Origin: SAR202 cluster bacterium
GTDB taxonomy: Bacteria > Chloroflexota > Dehalococcoidia > Lucifugimonadales > VGZY01
NCBI GenBank assembly: GCA_016872355.1
Contig: VGZY01000024.1
Location: forward strand, 1-39,118
Direction of reading: 5' to 3'
Length of the DNA: 39,118 nucleotides
In this document: positions 558-20,360 of the stretch, piece after piece
How positions within the stretch are numbered: position 1 is the first letter of the stretch
Layout of the letters: the number at the start of each line of letters is the position of its first letter
Translations under genes and position numbers: made by a program
The notes under the pieces: generated by a model
The model's database searches: none
The model's input: only the letters and a program-made list of their open reading frames with translations
What the model was told of the DNA's origin: nothing

Positions 558-926
558 ATGCCCAGGGAACGGCGCCTGACGAAGTCCAGCGACTTTGGGG
601 CGCTCCGAGCGGAGAACCGCTCGTGGTCGGACAGGCTACTCGTACTCAGGGTAAAGCGGAACGGCCTTGGGGTAAGCAGAGCGGGCTTTTCAGTGGGTAA
701 ACGGATCGGTAACGCGGTAACGCGTAACCGGGCAAAGCGTAGAATGCGAGAGGCAGTGCGCTTGACACCAGTCCAGCAGGGCTGGGATTTCGTGTTTATC
801 GCTCGGAACGGTGTAGTTGAGGCAGACTTCAAGGAGATCTGCAGCTCGGTCGAGTCGCTGCTCAAAAGGGCCGGGCTGCTGGCGCGGGCGCCTGCTCCAC
901 CGCCCGGCGAGGCGGGCATCCCATGA
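558..926 (+). CDS. rnpA: Ribonuclease P protein component
   Basis: RnpA is the basic protein subunit that helps the RNase P RNA bind and cleave 5' leaders of pre-tRNAs. The ORF shows the family features in order: a short basic N-terminus (MPRERRLTKSSDF), a central beta-sheet segment, and the signature GNAVTRNRAKRRMRE with its RNR core, followed by a hydrophobic strand (WDFVFIAR). From the ATG at 558 it is 122 residues, normal for the family. An in-frame GTG at 537 would add seven residues and start just after the rpmH stop. Neither start has a clear Shine-Dalgarno sequence, so coupling to rpmH is plausible. The Pro/Ala-rich C-terminus ends in an ATGA overlap with yidD. Confidence 0.95.
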   Translation: MPRERRLTKSSDFGALRAENRSWSDRLLVLRVKRNGLGVSRAGFSVGKRIGNAVTRNRAKRRMREAVRLTPVQQGWDFVFIARNGVVEADFKEICSSVESLLKRAGLLARAPAPPPGEAGIP

Positions 927-1135
927 TGAAGCGGCTGTCGCTGGGAGCGATCAGACTCTACCAGACCTCGATGAGCCCCTATTTCAGGGGGCACTGCCGC
1001 CACACGCCGACCTGCTCAAGCTACACTTACGAGGCCATCTCCCGGTACGGCGTCCTGAAGGGCATCTGGCTCGGCACGAAGCGCATCGGCCGCTGCCGGC
1101 CTTTCGGCACCAGAGGTTACGACCCTGTGCCATAG
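923..1135 (+). CDS. yidD: Membrane protein insertion efficiency factor YidD
   Basis: The protein has 70 residues with the YidD hallmarks: an amphipathic N-terminal helix (RLSLGAIRLYQTSMSP) and the conserved cysteine block with CRHTPTCSSYTYEAI, followed by GVLKGIWLGTKRIGRCRPF. YidD is a small peripheral inner-membrane protein that assists YidC-dependent insertion of membrane proteins. The start codon overlaps the rnpA stop (ATGA), which indicates translational coupling. In most genomes yidC follows directly. Here a lipoprotein gene intervenes. Confidence 0.95.
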   Translation: MMKRLSLGAIRLYQTSMSPYFRGHCRHTPTCSSYTYEAISRYGVLKGIWLGTKRIGRCRPFGTRGYDPVP

Positions 1136-1212
1136 CTTCCGGCCAACACCGGCGCCGGTCCGGATTAGCGAAGCGTAATTCTGTTCAAGGCGGACGTCCC
1201 ATTTCCTCCCAC

Positions 1213-2331
1213 ATGTCATACAGAAACCTGCCCATCACGGCGATCTTGGCGGCGCTCTCCATCTTCGCGCTGGCCGCGTGCGGAGGGGCACCCACCCCAT
1301 CCGGCTGGTCAGGCGCAGTGGTCCAGGGGGACCGCGTCTACATCGGCACCATGGACAGGGATGTCCGGGCCATAGACGTCAATTCCGGCGATACGGTCTG
1401 GAAGTTCCCCCTTCGCGGTACGACCGAGCTTAACCGCGCGGTCTACGGCACACCTGCCCTCGTTGACAACGTGCTGTACTTCGCCGTTTACGACGGGCTC
1501 ATGTACGCCGTGAACACAAACGGACGCGAGGTATGGAGCACCTCCGTCGGCGGTGGCCACCCCTTCGTCGGCAGTCCTGCCGTTGCGGACGGCAAGGTCC
1601 TGATCGGCTCCAACGACCACCACCTCTACGCGCTGGACGCGGCCAGCGGCAGCCAGGTATGGCGCTTCAAGACCGGTAACATGGTCTGGTCGTCCCCTGT
1701 CGTGGACAACGGCAGAGTGTACATCGGCTCGCTCGACCAGAAGGTCTACGCCCTTCGGCTCTCTGACGGGTCAAAGGTGTGGGAGTTCGAGGCGGGCGGC
1801 TCCGTCACGTCCCGTCCCCTCGTGGCGGACGGGCGGGTGTACGTCGGCTCCTTCGGCTCGAAGTTTTTCGCGCTCAATGCCGATACAGGCAGCCAGGTCT
1901 GGGAGTTTGACGGGGCCGGGTCCTGGTATTGGGCAGACCCCATAAAAGACGCGACTACGGTCTACGCCGCCTCGCTGGACGGCAACCTTTACGCGCTGGA
2001 CGCCGCCACGGGGGGGATGAAGTGGAAAGCGGAGACGAACGGCCAGATCACCGGCGCCCCGGCGCTGCTGGGGAGTTGGGTGATGGTGGGCTCCACCGAC
2101 GGCCGCGTGAGAATTGTGAACGCGGCGGACGGCAGCTCAACCAATTCGTGCAACATCGGCCCGGCCATCCGCGCTCCGTTAACCGTGGCCGACGACCGCA
2201 TTTACGTCAGCGCCGCGGACCGATCCATACGGTCGCTGACCATCAAGTCGAACGGCAACCCGGATGAAGAGTGGGTGCACCGCTCCAACAAGGAAGACCC
2301 GGTCGACAACGAGAGCGCCAGCGCGTGCTGA
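1213..2331 (+). CDS. PQQ-like beta-propeller lipoprotein (BamB-like repeats)
   Basis: The 372-residue protein starts with a lipoprotein signal peptide (basic start, hydrophobic core, lipobox LAAC at about residues 19-22). At least seven repeats of about 40 residues follow, of the form VYIGSLDQKVYALRLSDGSKVW, the outer-strand pattern of PQQ-binding-like/BamB propellers. The start at 1213 was chosen because the open frame further upstream overlaps yidD and encodes no signal peptide. No clear Shine-Dalgarno precedes it. Enzyme residues and cofactor ligands are not evident, so it is probably a surface-anchored binding or scaffold protein rather than a dehydrogenase. Its place between yidD and yidC suggests a role in membrane-protein biogenesis, but that is inference. 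Confidence 0.85.
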   Translation: MSYRNLPITAILAALSIFALAACGGAPTPSGWSGAVVQGDRVYIGTMDRDVRAIDVNSGDTVWKFPLRGTTELNRAVYGTPALVDNVLYFAVYDGLMYAVNTNGREVWSTSVGGGHPFVGSPAVADGKVLIGSNDHHLYALDAASGSQVWRFKTGNMVWSSPVVDNGRVYIGSLDQKVYALRLSDGSKVWEFEAGGSVTSRPLVADGRVYVGSFGSKFFALNADTGSQVWEFDGAGSWYWADPIKDATTVYAASLDGNLYALDAATGGMKWKAETNGQITGAPALLGSWVMVGSTDGRVRIVNAADGSSTNSCNIGPAIRAPLTVADDRIYVSAADRSIRSLTIKSNGNPDEEWVHRSNKEDPVDNESASAC

Positions 2332-2398
2332 TATCCCTACCCTGCCCTGAGTACATACCGTCGGCGCAGGAGTCCAAGAGAACTGTGAACGGTGGCCA

Positions 2399-3352
2399 TT
2401 GGAAATAGTCAGCCTCTTATGGACTGAAATACTTATCCGACCGATGATCAACGGCCTTGTGCTGTTGTATTCGGTCCTGTTCCACAACCTGGGCGTTGCG
2501 ATCATCGCGTTCACGGTGATCCTGCGCGTCCTGATGATCCCGCTGACGCTGCGGCAGAGCAAGCAGATGAAGAAGATGTCAGCCATACAGCCGCGGCTGC
2601 GGGAGATACAGACCAAGTTCAAAGACGACCGGGCGCGGATGTCCCAGGAGACGATGAAGGCCTACAAGGAGTCCGGCGTGAGCCCGGCGGGCTGCCTTGG
2701 GCCAATGATCATCCAGCTTCCGCTGTTCATCGCCTTCTACTCCGTGCTTCGGGCGGCATTGCCCTCCACGCCGGAGAGGCTGGCGGACCTGTCAAAGCAC
2801 CTGTACCCCTGGCTCCAGGCGGTCAGCGACGCCATCCCCATCAACGGGCGCTTCCTGTGGATGGACCTGGGCCAGCTGGCCAGCGCAGGCACCTTCCCCT
2901 TCTTCCTGCCGGTGCTCGTGGGCGTTTCCACGTGGCTCATGCAGAAGGTCTCGACGATGCCGGCCAGCAACCCACAGCAGGAGCAGACGAACCGGACAAT
3001 GCTGTGGATCATGCCCGGCATGTTCGCGGTCTTCTCCCTGAATTTCGAAAAGGGCCTGGCGCTATACTGGATTGTGTCTAACATCGCGGGCATGATCATC
3101 CAGGGGTTCATCACCGGATGGGGTCCGCTCATAAATACGTTCAAGGGATTCGGCCGCAAGCGACAGCCTGCGGACGCCGCGCCGGCCAATGCAATAGCTC
3201 CGGCCGCGTCCAAGACCGCAAAGCCCCCGACAGAGGAGGCGCAAGCAGATGAAGACAATAGAGAGAACGGCAAAGACGGCGGAGGAAGCGATCGAGCTGG
3301 CGCTCAAGGAGCTCGACGTCGAACGCACGGAAGTCGAAATCGACGTCATTAG
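2399..3352 (+). CDS. yidC: Membrane protein insertase YidC/Oxa1
   Basis: YidC inserts and folds inner-membrane proteins with or without SecYEG. The 317-residue ORF fits the short, single-lipoprotein-free YidC type. It has a first long membrane segment around residues 20-50 carrying the conserved groove arginine (R43 in VILRVLMIPLTLRQSK), a charged cytoplasmic hairpin (residues 52-90), the PLFIAFYSVLR segment, and two further membrane regions ending LYWIVSNIAGMIIQ. The start is a TTG at 2399, and GGTGG about 5 nt upstream is a modest ribosome site. The tail beyond about residue 255 is Ala/Pro-rich, then charged, and its last 104 nt overlap jag in another frame. Confidence 0.94.
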   Translation: MEIVSLLWTEILIRPMINGLVLLYSVLFHNLGVAIIAFTVILRVLMIPLTLRQSKQMKKMSAIQPRLREIQTKFKDDRARMSQETMKAYKESGVSPAGCLGPMIIQLPLFIAFYSVLRAALPSTPERLADLSKHLYPWLQAVSDAIPINGRFLWMDLGQLASAGTFPFFLPVLVGVSTWLMQKVSTMPASNPQQEQTNRTMLWIMPGMFAVFSLNFEKGLALYWIVSNIAGMIIQGFITGWGPLINTFKGFGRKRQPADAAPANAIAPAASKTAKPPTEEAQADEDNRENGKDGGGSDRAGAQGARRRTHGSRNRRH

Positions 3353-3902
3353 CCGCGGCAAGGCCGGCATCCTGGGAATCGGCGGAGAGCCCGCCCGCGT
3401 GCGCGTTACGCTCCTGGAGAAGCCGAAGGCCGAGGAGCCGCCGAGCGTCGCCAAGGTGGCCGTTGAGGTGCTGGACGGCCTCATCAAAAACATGGGCGTC
3501 ACAGCAGTCGTCAACCTGCGCTCCACCTTCCGCGAAGACGTGGGAGGCCCCGTGCTGGAGATCGACGGCGACGACTCCGGCCTCCTCATCGGGCGGCGCG
3601 GAGAGACCCTCCGCGCGCTGCAGTTCCTCGTCACCTTCATCACCGGGCGCAGGACCAATGAGAAGGTCAACATCTTCGTGGACATCTCCGGCTACCAGGC
3701 GCGGCGCTACCAGGCGCTCGAGAACATGGCGCTAAAGGTTGCCCAGCGGGTGGAGTCGTCCGGCAGGCCGATCACGCTGGAGCCGATGCCCCCCAACGAG
3801 CGCCGCGTCATCCACATGGCGCTGGCGGACAACCCCCGCGTGAAGACCGCCAGCACCGGCGAAGGCGACCACCGCCAGGTGGTTGTTGAGCCGGCGCGGT
3901 AG
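3249..3902 (+). CDS. jag: RNA-binding protein Jag/KhpB (Jag-N, KH, R3H)
   Basis: The 217-residue protein has three domains in order. A Jag-N domain spans residues 1-55, with the GKAGILGIGG motif. A KH domain spans about 70-145, with the GxxG-type loop IGRRGETL near residues 114-121. An R3H domain spans about 150-210, with PMPPNERRVIHMAL. KhpB binds RNA and influences cell division and elongation in Gram-positive bacteria; its gene typically follows yidC. The ATG at 3249 has AGAGGAGG 8-16 nt upstream and lies inside the yidC C-terminus, so the two genes overlap by 104 nt and are probably co-translated. Confidence 0.93.
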   Translation: MKTIERTAKTAEEAIELALKELDVERTEVEIDVISRGKAGILGIGGEPARVRVTLLEKPKAEEPPSVAKVAVEVLDGLIKNMGVTAVVNLRSTFREDVGGPVLEIDGDDSGLLIGRRGETLRALQFLVTFITGRRTNEKVNIFVDISGYQARRYQALENMALKVAQRVESSGRPITLEPMPPNERRVIHMALADNPRVKTASTGEGDHRQVVVEPAR

Positions 3903-13692: not shown

Positions 13693-13913
13693 GGGACAGT
13701 GGACACCTGGCGGCACATTTCGGGCTGACACGCCGCCGCACCTTGTCTATCTCTTCGTCCACTATTTAGATGTGAACGAATCAAGTATATCCGGTAAAAT
13801 CGGGCCGCAATAGCCCTGCCCTTCCGTGCGCGCCCCCCTTGATGAATCTATCCGGAAGCTCTACCCTTCATGCTGTCCCGGGCCGCGCCACGCGCGCCCT
13901 ATCGGAGGCCAGA

Positions 13914-15002
13914 ATGATTGTAGACTCCCATGCCCACGCCTTCCCTTACATGGGTAGCGCTTCCGGCCACCGCTCCGCGCGGGAGCACCTGAAGTACGTG
14001 CAGCACATCATGATGAGCCACCACCAGCCGCAGCGCCGCGTGCTGGACAACGCCGTCGCGCCCTCCAACACGCTGTGGGACGGCCGCGACGCGGCGCTGG
14101 GAGCGATGCACCACGTCGCGTTTCGCGCGGGCGATTACGGCCGCTTCACCTGGGTGTCCAACGACGACGAGCATTACATCCAGTACTTCCCTCCCTCTCT
14201 TCGCGACATTGTCGCCACGCCCGAGCAGATGGTCGCGCAGATGGACTACCTCGGCGTCTCGAAGGCGGTCCTGCAGACGGGCCACCTGTACGGCAAGCTG
14301 AACACCTACATCGCCAGGGCGGTCCAGAAGTACCCTCACCGCTTCTGGGGCCTGGCGATGGTGGACGAGTGGAAAGCGGACCACCCCAGCGAGCGCCGGA
14401 CGGTGGACCACGCCGTAAAGGAGCTGGGCCTCCACGCGCTGTGGTTCTACTCCGTTGCGCTCCGCCAGCACCGGCGCGCCGAGGCGCTGGATGACCCGGC
14501 CTTCTTCCCATTCTGGCGCCACGTGCGCAAGCTGGGGATCCCTGTATTCTGGTCGGTGAGCACCTCGTTCCCCGGCGCGGACGCCTACATGGCGGAGATG
14601 GACGCCTTCGGCCGCTGGGCGCACCGGTACCAGGATATCCCCGTCGTGTACACGCATGGCCTTCCGCTCGGGCGCTTTACGAAGGACGGCAAGATTTCAG
14701 TCCCGAAAGAGGCCTGGCGCGCGCTGGAGTCAAAAAACGTGCTGCTGGAGCTGCTCATCCCGATCGCGCAGGGCGCATCGTGGGAGTACCCGTTCGTGGA
14801 GGCGCGGCCGTTCATAAAAGAGGCCTATGAGCGCCTGGGCCCGGACCGCCTGGTGTGGGGCTCGGACATGCCCAACGTGGAGCGCCACTGCACGTACAGG
14901 CAGTCGCTCGACTACTTGCGGCTGCACTGCGACTTCATTCCGAAGGCGGACATGGAGAAGATAACCGGCAAGAACACGGCGAAGCTGTTCGGGGCATCGT
15001 GA
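13914..15002 (+). CDS. Amidohydrolase family 2 (TIM-barrel metal-dependent hydrolase/decarboxylase)
   Basis: The 362-residue protein starts MIVDSHAHAFPYMG, with the HxH metal pair at H6 and H8, and ends in the family's WGSDMPN aspartate motif (about residue 316) followed by a KITGKNTAKLFG tail. This is the amidohydrolase-2 layout of ACMSD-like decarboxylases and lactone hydrolases. The reaction cannot be told from sequence. The start at 13914 is chosen for GGAGG 10 nt upstream; the frame extends 25 codons further without similarity. A second amidohydrolase follows after seven nucleotides, so the two are probably co-transcribed and translationally coupled, as in degradation operons for carboxylated or lactone intermediates. 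Confidence 0.88.
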   Translation: MIVDSHAHAFPYMGSASGHRSAREHLKYVQHIMMSHHQPQRRVLDNAVAPSNTLWDGRDAALGAMHHVAFRAGDYGRFTWVSNDDEHYIQYFPPSLRDIVATPEQMVAQMDYLGVSKAVLQTGHLYGKLNTYIARAVQKYPHRFWGLAMVDEWKADHPSERRTVDHAVKELGLHALWFYSVALRQHRRAEALDDPAFFPFWRHVRKLGIPVFWSVSTSFPGADAYMAEMDAFGRWAHRYQDIPVVYTHGLPLGRFTKDGKISVPKEAWRALESKNVLLELLIPIAQGASWEYPFVEARPFIKEAYERLGPDRLVWGSDMPNVERHCTYRQSLDYLRLHCDFIPKADMEKITGKNTAKLFGAS

Positions 15003-15009
15003 GCGGCCT

Positions 15010-15852
15010 ATGACGATCGACTTCCATACCCATATCTACCCCGAGTGGCTGCGCGACCAGCGGGAGAAGTACCTGTCGCGCGATGCCACGTTCGGCGAGC
15101 TGTTCGTGAGCCCGAAGGCGAAGATGGCCACAGCCCAGGAGCTTATCGCCGCCATGGACGAGGACGGCGTGCAGGCCTCCGTGGTGATGGGCGTCGGCTG
15201 GACGGACCAGGGGCTGGCGCGGGACGTTAACGACTACATCATCGACGCCGTTCGTATGTACCCGGGCCGCATCGTCGGCTTCGGCGGCGTCAACCCGGCG
15301 TGGGGAGACGCCGCGGTCACCGAGGCTGAGCGCTGCGCCCGCGCAGGGCTGCGCGGCATCGGGGAGCTACACCCGGACACGCAGGGGTTCGCCATCCAGG
15401 AGAGGAGGGCGATGGAGCCGCTGGTTGAGGTGCTCCGGGAGTACCGGCTCATTCTCACCACGCACTCCTCCGAGCCCGTGGGCCACCTGTACCAGGGGAA
15501 GGGCCATACCACGCCGGACAAGCTGTGGGCGTTTATAGAGAGCTTCCCGGACGTGAAGGTGGTCTGCGCGCACTGGGGCGGCGGCCTGCCCTTCTACGCC
15601 CTCATGCCGGAGGTCGCCGAGGGTCTTGCGAACGTGTACTTCGACACGGCGGCTTCTCCATTCCTTTACAGCGCCGGCATCTTCCGGCAAGCGACGGCAC
15701 TGGTGGGCGCCGGGAAGGTGCTCATGGCGAGCGACTTCCCCCTCATCCGCGCCAAACGCATCCTGAAGCAGATCAACGAGGCCGCTTTAACCCCTGCGGA
15801 CAGGCAGAAGATCGTGCACGACAACGCGGCCGCGCTGCTGGGCATCGCCTGA
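15010..15852 (+). CDS. Amidohydrolase family 2 protein
   Basis: The 280-residue TIM-barrel hydrolase starts MTIDFHTHIYPEW, with HxH at H6/H8, a central THSSEPVGH segment, a metal-site CAHWGGGLPFY and a catalytic aspartate in MASDFPLI. It is shorter than its upstream neighbour and clearly divergent from it, so the pair is not a recent duplication. Family members hydrolyse or decarboxylate small carboxylates and lactones with one divalent metal. It starts seven nucleotides after the upstream stop. The ribosome site is weak (GAGCGG), which fits translational coupling. Confidence 0.88.
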   Translation: MTIDFHTHIYPEWLRDQREKYLSRDATFGELFVSPKAKMATAQELIAAMDEDGVQASVVMGVGWTDQGLARDVNDYIIDAVRMYPGRIVGFGGVNPAWGDAAVTEAERCARAGLRGIGELHPDTQGFAIQERRAMEPLVEVLREYRLILTTHSSEPVGHLYQGKGHTTPDKLWAFIESFPDVKVVCAHWGGGLPFYALMPEVAEGLANVYFDTAASPFLYSAGIFRQATALVGAGKVLMASDFPLIRAKRILKQINEAALTPADRQKIVHDNAAALLGIA

Positions 15853-15922: not shown

Positions 15923-16015
15923 GAAATCCGTTCCGGGCTGACTTGCGCGGCCCTCCAGACGTTCTAACCTTCGTCAACCCTATCGATCACTCCCTCTTAT
16001 CGCATGGAGATATCT

Positions 16016-18484
16016 GTGAAGCGCACCGTAATTGTCCTCTCCCTTATCGCAATTGCGCTATTCGCCATCGCCTGCTCGAAGGGCGACCCATCGCCGACGC
16101 CGACCCAGCCTCCGGCAGCGACGGCAACGGCCGTGCCGACAAGCTCGCCCACACCGGCGCCGCCCACAGCCACGCCGGTCGCCAACCCGCCCCAGGCGCA
16201 GGAGATACTGGGCACTTCTGCGAAGGCGATGCAGGCCCTGACTGCCGCGCACTTCGACATGGCCATAACAATGAAGGTCAGGAGCAATGACCTCACGCTC
16301 GATATACCGGTCTCACTGGTGGGAGACTTCCAGGCGCCGGACCGGTCGAAGGGCCTTCTCAAGATAGCCTTCGCGTTTCTTAACGTTGAATCGCAGGTCA
16401 TTTCCGTCGGCGGCACCACCTACATCACCAACCCCACCACAGGCGCATGGGAGGTCAGCCCCGGCGCGTCCGCCGTATTCTCCAACCCGTCAGAGTTCTT
16501 CACGGCAGACACGTCTGCTTTGACCGGCCTCACGCTGGTTGGGGAAGAGACTGTAGGCGGCGTGCAGACCTTCCATATCCGCGGGAAGGCCATTTCCGGC
16601 ACTTTCGGCGACGCCAGCGGCTCCGTGGACGTGGACTACTGGATCGGCATCCAGGACGGTTACGTCCGGAAGCTGGAGGCCACCGGGCCGATCAACCCCG
16701 GCCTGGAGCTTAGCCATCTCCTTACGGGCGTGAACACCACAAACGCCTCAATGGTCATGCGGATGACCCTCTCGGACTTCAACAAGCCGGTCATAATCGA
16801 AGCGCCGATCGTCGCCCCTCCCGCGCCGACGCCAGTGGCAAAGCAGTACCCGGGCGCGCCCGCGACGGTCATCGAGCCGGGGAAGACGTACACGGCCACG
16901 ATAGAGCTGGCGAAGGGCGGCAACATCGTTATCGGCCTCTACTCCAACCTTGCGCCGATCACGGTCAACAACTACGTCTTTCTCGCGCGGGACGGCTACT
17001 ACAACGGCGTCACGTTCCACCGCGTGATCGCTAACTTCATGGCGCAGTCCGGCGACCCCACGGGCACGGGCACCGGCAGCCCCGGCTACACCATCCCCAA
17101 CGAGTTCAGCAACGAGCTGCGGCACGCCCAGGCCGGGATACTTTCCATGGCCAACGGGGGCATGCCCGGCGGCCGCCCCACAAACGGCAGCCAGTTCTTC
17201 ATCACCTACGGGCCAACGTCATGGCTGGACGGCCTTAACCCGGACGGCAGCCCCAAGAGCTGCTCAGAGCCCCAGGTGGCGTGCCATTCCGTCTTCGGAA
17301 TCGTCCTTGAAGGGATGGACGTGCTGCGCTCGATCGCGCCGCGCGACCCGGCATTCGCGACGGCGCCGGGAGACGCAATCAGGTCGATTACTATCCAGGA
17401 GTACGCGGCCGGGCAGGGCCCGGATATCCCCCTGCCGGAGGCCGTCAAGCCTGCCGCCAGTGACATGGCAGACGCACGGTATATGCATGTCGCCGCGGCG
17501 CTACACGACGGCAGGACACTGGTGGTGGGCGGCATCGGCCAGAGCGGCCCCCTATCCTCCACGGAAATCTTTGACCCGGCAACCAACCGGTGGACAACCA
17601 CCGGAGGCACCTCGCAGCCGCGAGCCATCCATTCCGGCGTGACGCTCAAGGACGGCAGGGTCCTCGTTTCCGGAGGCCTCAATGCAGCCGCTACCGCGTA
17701 CATTAACCTGGCGGAGGTCTTCAACCCTGCCACCGGCGCGTGGACGGTGACCGGCCCCATGTCTGAAGTGAGGGGCGGACACTCGGCAACACTGCTGGGC
17801 GACGGCCGCGTGCTGATTGCGGGCGGTTCCACCGGCCAGGCGACGCTGAAGACAGCGGAGATATACGACCCCGCCACGAGCGTGTGGACCAGGGTGGCGG
17901 ATATGGCGCACGGGCGGGACGGCCATTCGGCCACTTTGCTTGCGAATGGGAAGGTGCTGGTTGCTGGAGGCGCAGATGAAACGACGAGCTCCCTGGCGAC
18001 GACGGAGGTCTATGACCCGGCGACAAATTCGTGGTCGAGCGCGGGCAACCTCGCGGCCGCCCGATCATCGCACACCGCCACACTGCTTCCCAACGGCAAT
18101 GTGCTGGTTGCAGGGGGCGGCATCGATCCTGTTGGGGTGATAGGCACGACGGAGATCTACGATGCCGTGGCTAACAAGTGGACAGGCGGCGCCGGCATGT
18201 CCACCCCGCGGGCCGGGCACAGCGCGGTGGCGCTGAAGGACGGAAAGGTGATGGTCATGGGCGGGCTGGACAATACACCGGCGCCCATAGCCGCGGCTGA
18301 GATCTACGACTCCGCCACAGGCATCTGGGTGCCGGCGATGGACATGCCCAGCGTGCGCATTCTTCACAGGACGCTGTTGCTCAGTGACGGCCGCGTGCTC
18401 TCAATAGGTGGCGTTGGCGTTAACTCCCTGCTGGCCTCCATTGCCTTATACGACCCGGCGACAGGCCGCTGGGCGGAGCAGTGA
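16016..18484 (+). CDS. LprG-like / cyclophilin / kelch-propeller fusion lipoprotein
   Basis: The 822-residue lipoprotein has four parts. There is a signal peptide with lipobox-like AIAC near residue 20, then a Pro/Thr linker. An LppX/LprG-like beta domain covers about residues 60-260. A cyclophilin-type peptidyl-prolyl isomerase domain covers about 285-460, with FHRVIANFMAQSGDP, NGSQFFITYGPTSWLDG and VFGIVLEGMDVL. Six kelch-like repeats cover about 480-822, of the form DGRVLVSGG...AEVFNPATGAWT. The cyclophilin core looks complete, including the FHR and QFFIT residues. GTG at 16016 is preferred because GGAG lies 6 nt upstream; an ATG at 16004 would overlap that site. It probably folds or binds secreted proteins or lipids at the cell surface; this is inferred from the domains. 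Confidence 0.9.
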   Translation: MKRTVIVLSLIAIALFAIACSKGDPSPTPTQPPAATATAVPTSSPTPAPPTATPVANPPQAQEILGTSAKAMQALTAAHFDMAITMKVRSNDLTLDIPVSLVGDFQAPDRSKGLLKIAFAFLNVESQVISVGGTTYITNPTTGAWEVSPGASAVFSNPSEFFTADTSALTGLTLVGEETVGGVQTFHIRGKAISGTFGDASGSVDVDYWIGIQDGYVRKLEATGPINPGLELSHLLTGVNTTNASMVMRMTLSDFNKPVIIEAPIVAPPAPTPVAKQYPGAPATVIEPGKTYTATIELAKGGNIVIGLYSNLAPITVNNYVFLARDGYYNGVTFHRVIANFMAQSGDPTGTGTGSPGYTIPNEFSNELRHAQAGILSMANGGMPGGRPTNGSQFFITYGPTSWLDGLNPDGSPKSCSEPQVACHSVFGIVLEGMDVLRSIAPRDPAFATAPGDAIRSITIQEYAAGQGPDIPLPEAVKPAASDMADARYMHVAAALHDGRTLVVGGIGQSGPLSSTEIFDPATNRWTTTGGTSQPRAIHSGVTLKDGRVLVSGGLNAAATAYINLAEVFNPATGAWTVTGPMSEVRGGHSATLLGDGRVLIAGGSTGQATLKTAEIYDPATSVWTRVADMAHGRDGHSATLLANGKVLVAGGADETTSSLATTEVYDPATNSWSSAGNLAAARSSHTATLLPNGNVLVAGGGIDPVGVIGTTEIYDAVANKWTGGAGMSTPRAGHSAVALKDGKVMVMGGLDNTPAPIAAAEIYDSATGIWVPAMDMPSVRILHRTLLLSDGRVLSIGGVGVNSLLASIALYDPATGRWAEQ

Positions 18485-18485
18485 G

Positions 18486-19634
18486 TCACCCCCCAATGTG
18501 GTACATCTCCACTTTCTTGCGGCGGGGCTGGGTGAGCGAGGTGCGCTCCTCGGAGTAGCGGTCGTCGCGCTTGCGCCACGTGCCCATGAAGATCTCGCGC
18601 AGCTCGCTGTCTGTGGCGCCGGCGCGCATGGGACCGCGGAGGTCTACGCCGCTGCCCGCGAACAGGCACGTGTACATCTTCCCTTCGGGCGAGAGGCGCA
18701 GCCTCGTGCAGTCCCCGCAGAACGGCTTGGTGACCGAGGCGATGATGCCGATCTCCCCGCCGCCGTCCCGGTAACGGAACCGCAGCGCCACTTCGCCCCA
18801 GTAGTTGCTCTCGATGGGCTCCAGCGGCATTGCCGCGTCTATCCGTGCCACGATCTCGTCCGCCGTCACAACCTGGTCCAGCTTCCAGTCGTTCCGCGTG
18901 CCAACGTCCATATACTCGATGAACCGCAGGATGTGGCCCCGGTCCTTCATAAACTTCGCCAGGTCCACGATGGTGTGGTCATTCACGCCTCGCTGGACGA
19001 CGGAGTTGATCTTGATCGGGGTCAGGCCGACACGCTCCGCCTCGGCGATGCCTGCCAGCACGCGCTCCGTGCCGAAGCTGCGGCCGTTCATCTTGCGGAA
19101 TACGGCGTCGTCCAGGCTGTCCAGGCTGACGGTCACCCGGTGGAGGCCGGCGTCCTTGAGCGCCTGGGCCTTCTGGGCGAGCAGGTAGCCGTTGGTGGTC
19201 ATGGTGAGGTCGATACCGGCGGGTTTCATCTCTGTGTTCCTCTCCCCCCGGGAGAGGATGTCGCGCTCCGGCGACAGGTGAGGGATGAGACTTTTTCCAC
19301 TTTCTCCTCTCCCCCCGGGAGAGGATGTCCCGCCCCGGGACAGGTGAGGGCTCGCCTCAATCTTCGCCAGCATCCCTACCAGTGTTTCCACCTGGTTTCG
19401 CACGAGCGGCTCGCCGCCGGTCAGGCGCACCTTGGCCGCGCCCATGCCGACGAACATCCGGGTGAGGCGCGTGATCTCCTCGAAGGTGAGGAGGTCCGGC
19501 TTCGGCAGGAACTCGTATCGCTCGCCGAATATCTCGGCGGGCATGCAATAAGTGCAGCGGAAGTTGCACCTATCGGTGACGGACACCCGCAGGTCCCGGA
19601 AGGGGCGATTCAGTTTATCTAATACCTGGATCAA
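18486..19634 (-). CDS. moaA: GTP 3',8-cyclase MoaA with a repeat-encoded insertion
   Basis: MoaA is a radical SAM enzyme that begins molybdenum cofactor synthesis by rearranging GTP. Visible features are the SAM-cluster cysteines C23, C27 and C30 (DRCNFRCTYC), the LTGGEPLVR motif (residues 71-79), the C-terminal cluster cysteines C306, C309 and C323 (CGDCTRLRL...YTC), and the C-terminal GG (MYHIGG) needed by the family. From the TTG at 19634 (GGTAAAGG just upstream) it is 382 residues, longer than the usual 325-340. About 45 extra residues (95-139) fall between the helix after LTGGEP and the TTNGYLL strand and are encoded by palindromic repeats. No other moa gene is nearby. Confidence 0.92.
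   Translation of the reverse strand: MIQVLDKLNRPFRDLRVSVTDRCNFRCTYCMPAEIFGERYEFLPKPDLLTFEEITRLTRMFVGMGAAKVRLTGGEPLVRNQVETLVGMLAKIEASPHLSRGGTSSPGGRGESGKSLIPHLSPERDILSRGERNTEMKPAGIDLTMTTNGYLLAQKAQALKDAGLHRVTVSLDSLDDAVFRKMNGRSFGTERVLAGIAEAERVGLTPIKINSVVQRGVNDHTIVDLAKFMKDRGHILRFIEYMDVGTRNDWKLDQVVTADEIVARIDAAMPLEPIESNYWGEVALRFRYRDGGGEIGIIASVTKPFCGDCTRLRLSPEGKMYTCLFAGSGVDLRGPMRAGATDSELREIFMGTWRKRDDRYSEERTSLTQPRRKKVEMYHIGG
19239..19350. repeat. Two palindromic repeat copies inside the moaA coding sequence
   Basis: Copies at 19239-19284 and 19306-19350 (start spacing 67 nt) share CCTCTCCCCCCGGGAGAGG, then a TGTC...GACA hairpin, then AGGTGAGGG. The spacer between them (ATGAGACTTTTTCC...) resembles the one between the 37386 and 37454 copies. 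In the moaA frame they encode PHLSRGG... and PHLSPERDILSRGE without any stop. Confidence 0.85.
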
Positions 19635-19650
19635 ACCTTTACCTACTCCT

Positions 19651-19704
19651 CCTCTCCCGGCTCCGCGGGAGAGGAGGCCCCGATTCCATCGGGACAGGTG
19701 AGGG
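19651..19704. repeat. Palindromic repeat copy at the moaA start
   Basis: This copy is CCTCTCCCGGCTCCGCGGGAGAGG, with 7-8-bp arms, then a CCCCGAT...ATCGGG hairpin and ACAGGTGAGGG. It is preceded by AAACCTTTACC, matching the spacer of the 37386/37454 pair. That spacer contains, on the minus strand, the probable moaA ribosome site and start codon. Confidence 0.75.
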
Positions 19705-19729
19705 CGGCTGTTCGGCTCTCTCTGTCCCC

Positions 19730-20329
19730 CTACGCCCCCGCCCAGCGCTTCAGCGCCGTGGCGGCCTTGCGGAACGCTGCGCCGCGATGGCTCCGGCGGT
19801 TCTTCTCTTTCGGCGGCAGCTCCGCCATCGTCTTGCCAAGCTCCGGGAACAGGAAAATCGGGTCGTAGCCGAAGCCGTTGCTGCCGCGCGGCTCGAACGC
19901 AATCTCGCCGTGGCATTCGCCTTCGAAGATGTCCAGGCGGTCGTCATCCCAGCAGACCGCAATTACGCTCCGGAACCGGGCGCGCCGGGCGCCTGCCTTT
20001 ACATTCTTCAACTTCTCAAGCAAAAAAGCAATTTTACGGTCGTCCGAGGCGCCCACGCCGGCGTACCTGGCCGAGCGCACGCCCGGCTCGCCGCCGAGCG
20101 CCTCCACCTCCAGCCCCGAGTCGTCGGCAAGCGTCGCCAGGCCGCTCAGGTCTGCGTAGGCGCGGGCCTTGAGCACCGCGTTCTCCTCAAAAGTCTCACC
20201 CGTCTCCTCCACGTCCGTCGTGATGCCCACATCCGCGAGCGAGAGCACCTTCACCGGGTAACCGGTCAGCATCTCGGTCAGCTCCTTGACCTTACCTTTG
20301 TTCGTCGTCGCGATTAGAAGGTTTTTCAT
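19730..20329 (-). CDS. rdgB: XTP/dITP diphosphatase (non-canonical purine NTPase)
   Basis: RdgB/HAM1 removes ITP, dITP and XTP from the nucleotide pool by hydrolysis to the monophosphate. The 199-residue protein has the family start MKNLLIATTNKGKVKE (the TTNKGK nucleotide site), the acidic LADDSGLEVEALGGEPGV block, and the substrate loop NGFGYDPIF. Length is normal. The start at 20329 has AAGAGGC about 8 nt upstream; ten additional in-frame codons upstream lack family similarity. It is the last gene before moaA on the same strand and lies downstream of the aldolase terminator, so it is probably transcribed separately. Confidence 0.95.
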   Translation of the reverse strand: MKNLLIATTNKGKVKELTEMLTGYPVKVLSLADVGITTDVEETGETFEENAVLKARAYADLSGLATLADDSGLEVEALGGEPGVRSARYAGVGASDDRKIAFLLEKLKNVKAGARRARFRSVIAVCWDDDRLDIFEGECHGEIAFEPRGSNGFGYDPIFLFPELGKTMAELPPKEKNRRSHRGAAFRKAATALKRWAGA

Positions 20330-20360
20330 CTGTGCCTCTTGGTGCGTTGGTAAAACCAAA

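Follow-up and report, generated by a model that had tools for sequence, protein, structure and literature searches.

A lipoprotein of a SAR202 cluster bacterium joins LprG-like, cyclophilin and kelch domains in one reading frame

The lipoprotein gene and its surroundings

The window, by which we mean the whole 39,118-nucleotide stretch of contig VGZY01000024.1 that was analysed, holds a lipoprotein gene formed by a single unbroken open reading frame (16004..18484, + strand; 826 codons counted from the ATG), and the features of its product are collected in Table 1. By inspection, the N-terminus has both the signal peptide and the lipobox Cys of a bacterial lipoprotein (...LFAIAC24), lipidation itself being predicted, and the only other Cys residues in the protein are Cys420 and Cys427. 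An in-frame GTG at 16016, the start taken by an earlier sequence-only reading, yields MKRTVIVLSLIAIALFAIAC, likewise a good lipoprotein signal and of the more usual short type, so that both codons are possible starts of translation as candidates read from the sequence. That reading had placed LprG-like, cyclophilin and kelch parts on one anchored chain, and all three were recovered behind the lipobox in this one frame, each with a Pfam match above cutoff.

Upstream of the gene lies an adjacent pair of amidohydrolase genes (13839-15852, +), and at 817-3902 (+) a BamB/PQQ-type propeller protein adjoins a YidC-like insertase and a Jag RNA-binding protein in an envelope-biogenesis group. On the opposite strand (18486-20359) a listed MoaA-like frame (18486-19916) and a Ham1-like frame (19730-20359) share 187 bases; the first ~85 residues of the MoaA-like frame seem to be non-coding, so its real start is probably further in.

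Table 1. Positions of the lipoprotein gene and of its parts in the window.
Feature	Position	Strand	Residues and remarks	Basis
Whole gene	16004..18484	+	826 aa; second in-frame start, GTG, at 16016	
Signal peptide	16004..16072	+	1-23, ...IAIALFAIA	sequence
Lipobox Cys, predicted lipidation site	16073..16075	+	Cys24 (FAIAC)	sequence
Pro/Thr/Ala-rich spacer	16076..16195	+	25-64	sequence
LppX/LprG domain	16196..16792	+	65-263	Pfam PF07161; AlphaFold2 model; Foldseek
Cyclophilin domain	16838..17401	+	279-466	Pfam PF00160; active-site residues
Insertion ahead of catalytic His	17228..17284	+	contains Cys420 and Cys427 (DGLNPDGSPKSCSEPQVAC)	sequence and 107-domain alignment
Linker	17402..17461	+	467-486; C-terminal end of two-domain relatives falls here	
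Seven-repeat kelch propeller	17462..18481	+	487-826; repeats begin at 487, 536, 586, 634, 683, 732, 781	

Three domains and what each could do

The N-terminal domain matched the PF07161 family (LppX_LprAFG) over residues 65-263 with 48.2 bits against a cutoff of 24. When the LprG part alone was used to search the PDB by sequence no match was returned, and fold search alone gave matches; the assignment as LprG is supported by the fold matches of its model to LprG, LprF and LppX. This AlphaFold2 model, built from an alignment of 20 sequences (mean pLDDT 87.7), had M. tuberculosis LprG (3mh9) as its top Foldseek match (E 1.4e-12) and gave TM scores of 0.62-0.70 to LprG structures, the best matches being LprG (3mh9, 3mh8, 3mha, 4zra), LprF (4qa8) and LppX (2byo), with LolA-type carriers after them. 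The LprG-like domain read earlier from the letters was borne out by structure prediction. Models were built for the LprG domain and for the kelch domain one at a time, the full-length alignment having misplaced kelch rows onto the cyclophilin.

Since the top fold matches include lipid-bound forms of LprG, and LprG moves triacylglyceride between vesicles (PMC4709180), the LprG-like domain might itself be the working part, shuttling a lipid or glycolipid between the membrane and the wall with cyclophilin and kelch as accessory docking domains. We regard this as rather unlikely: no Rv1410-like MFS partner gene was found among the scanned genes of the window, and conservation of the LprG part is weak, at 16-32% identity with relatives, whereas most active-site positions of the cyclophilin are nearly invariant in an alignment of 107 domains.

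The cyclophilin domain matched PF00160 (Pro_isomerase) over residues 299-446 with 131.9 bits (cutoff 21.7), and the equivalents of the human CypA active-site residues R55, F60, M61, Q63, A101, F113, W121, L122 and H126 were all present (9/9). Just ahead of the catalytic His is an insertion with two Cys residues, found in 52 of the 107 aligned cyclophilins in the pattern K-x-C-x(3-6)-[SAP]-C-H, with the second Cys immediately N-terminal to the His. Most exported cyclophilins of the order carry this insertion (for example L002, L010, L115, L134 and L146), although those of families f6 and f19 do not, and the short signal-less cyclophilins are without the Cys pair, with the single exception of L148, the start of which is uncertain. 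An extracytoplasmic disulfide between Cys420 and Cys427 is plausible; that the pair controls isomerase activity is a guess, and its place beside the active site makes it a candidate switch that can be tested.

The C-terminal part matched several Pfam kelch models, the best with 165 bits (cutoff 20.1), and its PDB matches were headed by kelch structures. Six repeats had been counted in the sequence-only reading; the repeat table instead gave seven, of ~49 aa each, which all contain both a GG motif and a W motif, and the AlphaFold2 model (pLDDT 94.1, pTM 0.92) was all-beta with ~28 strands in seven blades of four. Two enzymatic assignments of this part were rejected. A radical copper oxidase of the galactose oxidase/GlxA type would need a Cys for the Cys-Tyr cofactor, which the kelch part lacks, and NCBIfam GlxA scored 93 bits where the cutoff is 800; the score for a sialate epimerase was likewise far below cutoff.

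Such a wheel could make the protein mainly structural or adhesive, binding an extracellular polymer or another cell, with the cyclophilin merely a stable inherited domain. Stand-alone kelch lipoproteins, which are common in the order and include one of 752 aa in the same genome (C41), are consistent with this, as is the free shuffling of modules described below, but a purely structural cyclophilin would not require the retention of every catalytic position, and we consider the adhesive explanation improbable.

An intact fusion among shuffled relatives

The fusion is known from a single genome, a draft of 133 contigs (3.07 Mb, 97.6% complete), and was judged from the assembly rather than from reads, so we considered whether an LprG-cyclophilin gene had been joined to a kelch gene during assembly. 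No sign was found of a sequencing artefact merging separate genes, one of the two outcomes that the earlier reading had named as fatal to it. The frame runs through LprG, cyclophilin and kelch parts with no stop or frameshift and with a short linker, the junction between cyclophilin and kelch falls exactly at the cyclophilin C-terminus of the two-domain relatives, and it is internal to the 39 kb contig with no repeat there. Third-position GC was broadly alike across it (cyclophilin 0.89, linker 0.81, kelch 0.78). The same genome encodes separate cyclophilin (C9, 61% identical to domain 2), kelch (C41) and LprG-like (C27) lipoproteins; no long DNA repeat links the fusion gene to the kelch or cyclophilin loci elsewhere in this genome, exact matches reaching 17 and 25 bases at most, and the genome was found to have neither a second LprG-cyclophilin gene nor a closely matching kelch gene. 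An artefact would require two frames to be joined in register exactly at a domain border, and we give it a very small probability; from the assembled sequence, a merge appears unlikely.

Searches for the same domain order returned no match. The full three-domain protein was not found in 98 relatives, a kelch part added to LprG-cyclophilin was found in none of 250 genomes of the order, and a cyclophilin-kelch fusion was absent from 393 genomes of the class Dehalococcoidia, 400 of the phylum Chloroflexota and 289 of the phylum to which G943, source of the Spartobacteria locus L044, belongs. Neither 67 loci from an 84,980-species collection nor 72,556 plasmids contained the architecture. These searches scored the best few candidates per genome, from which a rare or diverged fusion could escape, and the window genome is the sole representative of its family among the genomes searched. 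Among the open-access papers searched, none named cyclophilin alongside LprG and LppX, or SAR202 Chloroflexi alongside kelch, and papers mentioning both cyclophilin and kelch had, by title, other subjects.

The three-part architecture is therefore new to all collections searched, while anchored cyclophilins, LprG-cyclophilins and propeller-cyclophilins each already exist nearby. The combination had been described as unfamiliar, which holds for the complete order of domains but not for its parts: a two-domain LprG-cyclophilin lipoprotein occurs in at least 16 of the 250 genomes of the order, in four other families (f34, f16, f9 and f23), and propeller and cyclophilin are combined in a further one (f29). 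There, four lipoproteins of ~950-1030 aa (L134, L157, L158 and L159) contain PKD and a PD40 propeller, end in a cyclophilin and form one supported clade. Six genomes of a fifth LprG-bearing family (f6) have a middle part with no assigned domain between LprG and cyclophilin.

Other exported cyclophilins are joined to still different modules. One lipoprotein (L131:2168-4894, +) combines a trypsin-like protease, a middle part with no assigned domain and a cyclophilin, another exported cyclophilin is fused to PKD (L140), and a third protein (L146:1174-2445, -), a cyclophilin lipoprotein, has a C-terminal tail that by inspection only is cupredoxin-like (plastocyanin-type copper domain). Among the genomes searched, kelch C-terminal to cyclophilin was found in the window protein only. 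Sequences and domain models together show a kelch propeller appended to an LprG-cyclophilin module, which in relatives stands alone.

Maximum-likelihood analysis of 104 cyclophilin domains gathered the LprG-cyclophilins of f34 in one supported clade (100/99), and those of f16, f23, f9 and the window fell elsewhere, among single-domain lipoprotein cyclophilins. This distribution needs four changes, at least two of them forced by strong branches, which means that the pairing of LprG with cyclophilin arose, or came apart, on more than one occasion. The position of the window cyclophilin is not fixed because its branch is long.

Proposed role and comparison with known systems

We propose, at about an even chance, that the window protein acts as an extracytoplasmic foldase, tethered by its lipid anchor and extended by a kelch propeller for recruitment. 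Export and lipidation would place it on the membrane's outer side, where, by family knowledge, the cyclophilin may isomerise X-Pro bonds in newly exported proteins and the propeller may be the site at which a specific client or partner docks and is recruited or oriented. The membrane-proximal LprG-like domain could hold acyl chains or lipid, either from lipidated clients or so as to couple folding to the surface of the membrane. A folding factor at the cell surface, as suggested earlier, would be consistent with the intact active site and, by analogy, with the known surface cyclophilins.

Interchangeable modules on exported cyclophilins (trypsin, PKD with PD40, PKD, cupredoxin-like) would be anticipated were the added domain to steer the isomerase towards its clients, and this swapping around a constant isomerase supports the foldase proposal together with the lipid binding and transfer of LprG and the isomerase and chaperone activities in vitro of PpiA, the surface cyclophilin of Lactococcus lactis (PMC3307742). 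A lactococcal PpiA mutant, however, had almost no phenotype (PMC3307742), which counts against the proposal, as a cyclophilin at the surface need not be of great consequence. Also in favour of a foldase, two other genomes have exported cyclophilin and kelch genes as close same-strand neighbours: a kelch gene is directly upstream of the L131 cyclophilin gene (about 130 bases), and in a Burkholderiales MAG (L070:4533-7337, +) the gene for an exported cyclophilin lipoprotein precedes that for a kelch lipoprotein with fewer than 40 bases between them, so that the pair resembles the fusion in two-gene form. Against it, this pair was not recurrent among the relatives of L070, and we rejected the idea of a general cyclophilin-kelch operon.

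A broader and more doubtful scheme would have the active site of the order's exported cyclophilins switched by a disulfide of the Cys pair beside the catalytic His and their clients chosen by the swapped modules, with the window protein as a kelch-aimed version that is held at the membrane through its LprG-like lipid-binding domain. As a single fusion the protein is a curiosity, and the larger point is the modular family, in which a bacterial lineage that is largely uncultured appears to assemble surface foldases by exchanging modules, and a lipid-binding fold is repeatedly tied to a folding enzyme.

PpiA and the streptococcal lipoprotein rotamase A (SlrA) are, like the window protein, membrane-anchored extracytoplasmic cyclophilins, but they are not known to have an LprG or kelch domain (PMC3307742). 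The f29 lipoproteins share with it an anchored chain bearing both a beta-propeller and a cyclophilin, yet their propeller is of PD40 type and N-terminal to the cyclophilin and they lack LprG, where the window protein has LprG and a C-terminal kelch. Human PPWD1 (WD40-cyclophilin, PDB 5yzg) also has propeller and cyclophilin in one chain; it is nuclear, with WD40 rather than kelch, the propeller first and no known membrane anchor. The mycobacterial lipoproteins LprG, LppX, LprA and LprF (PF07161) have a lipobox and the same fold as the LprG domain of the window protein, which scores above the Pfam cutoff for their family; they are known as single-domain proteins, unlike the fusion to cyclophilin and kelch found here. 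The LprG-cyclophilin lipoproteins of the order (L010, L115, L118, L135 and others) have the same succession of signal, spacer, LprG-like domain and Cys-pair cyclophilin; they stop right past the cyclophilin, at the point from which the window protein continues into its kelch propeller.
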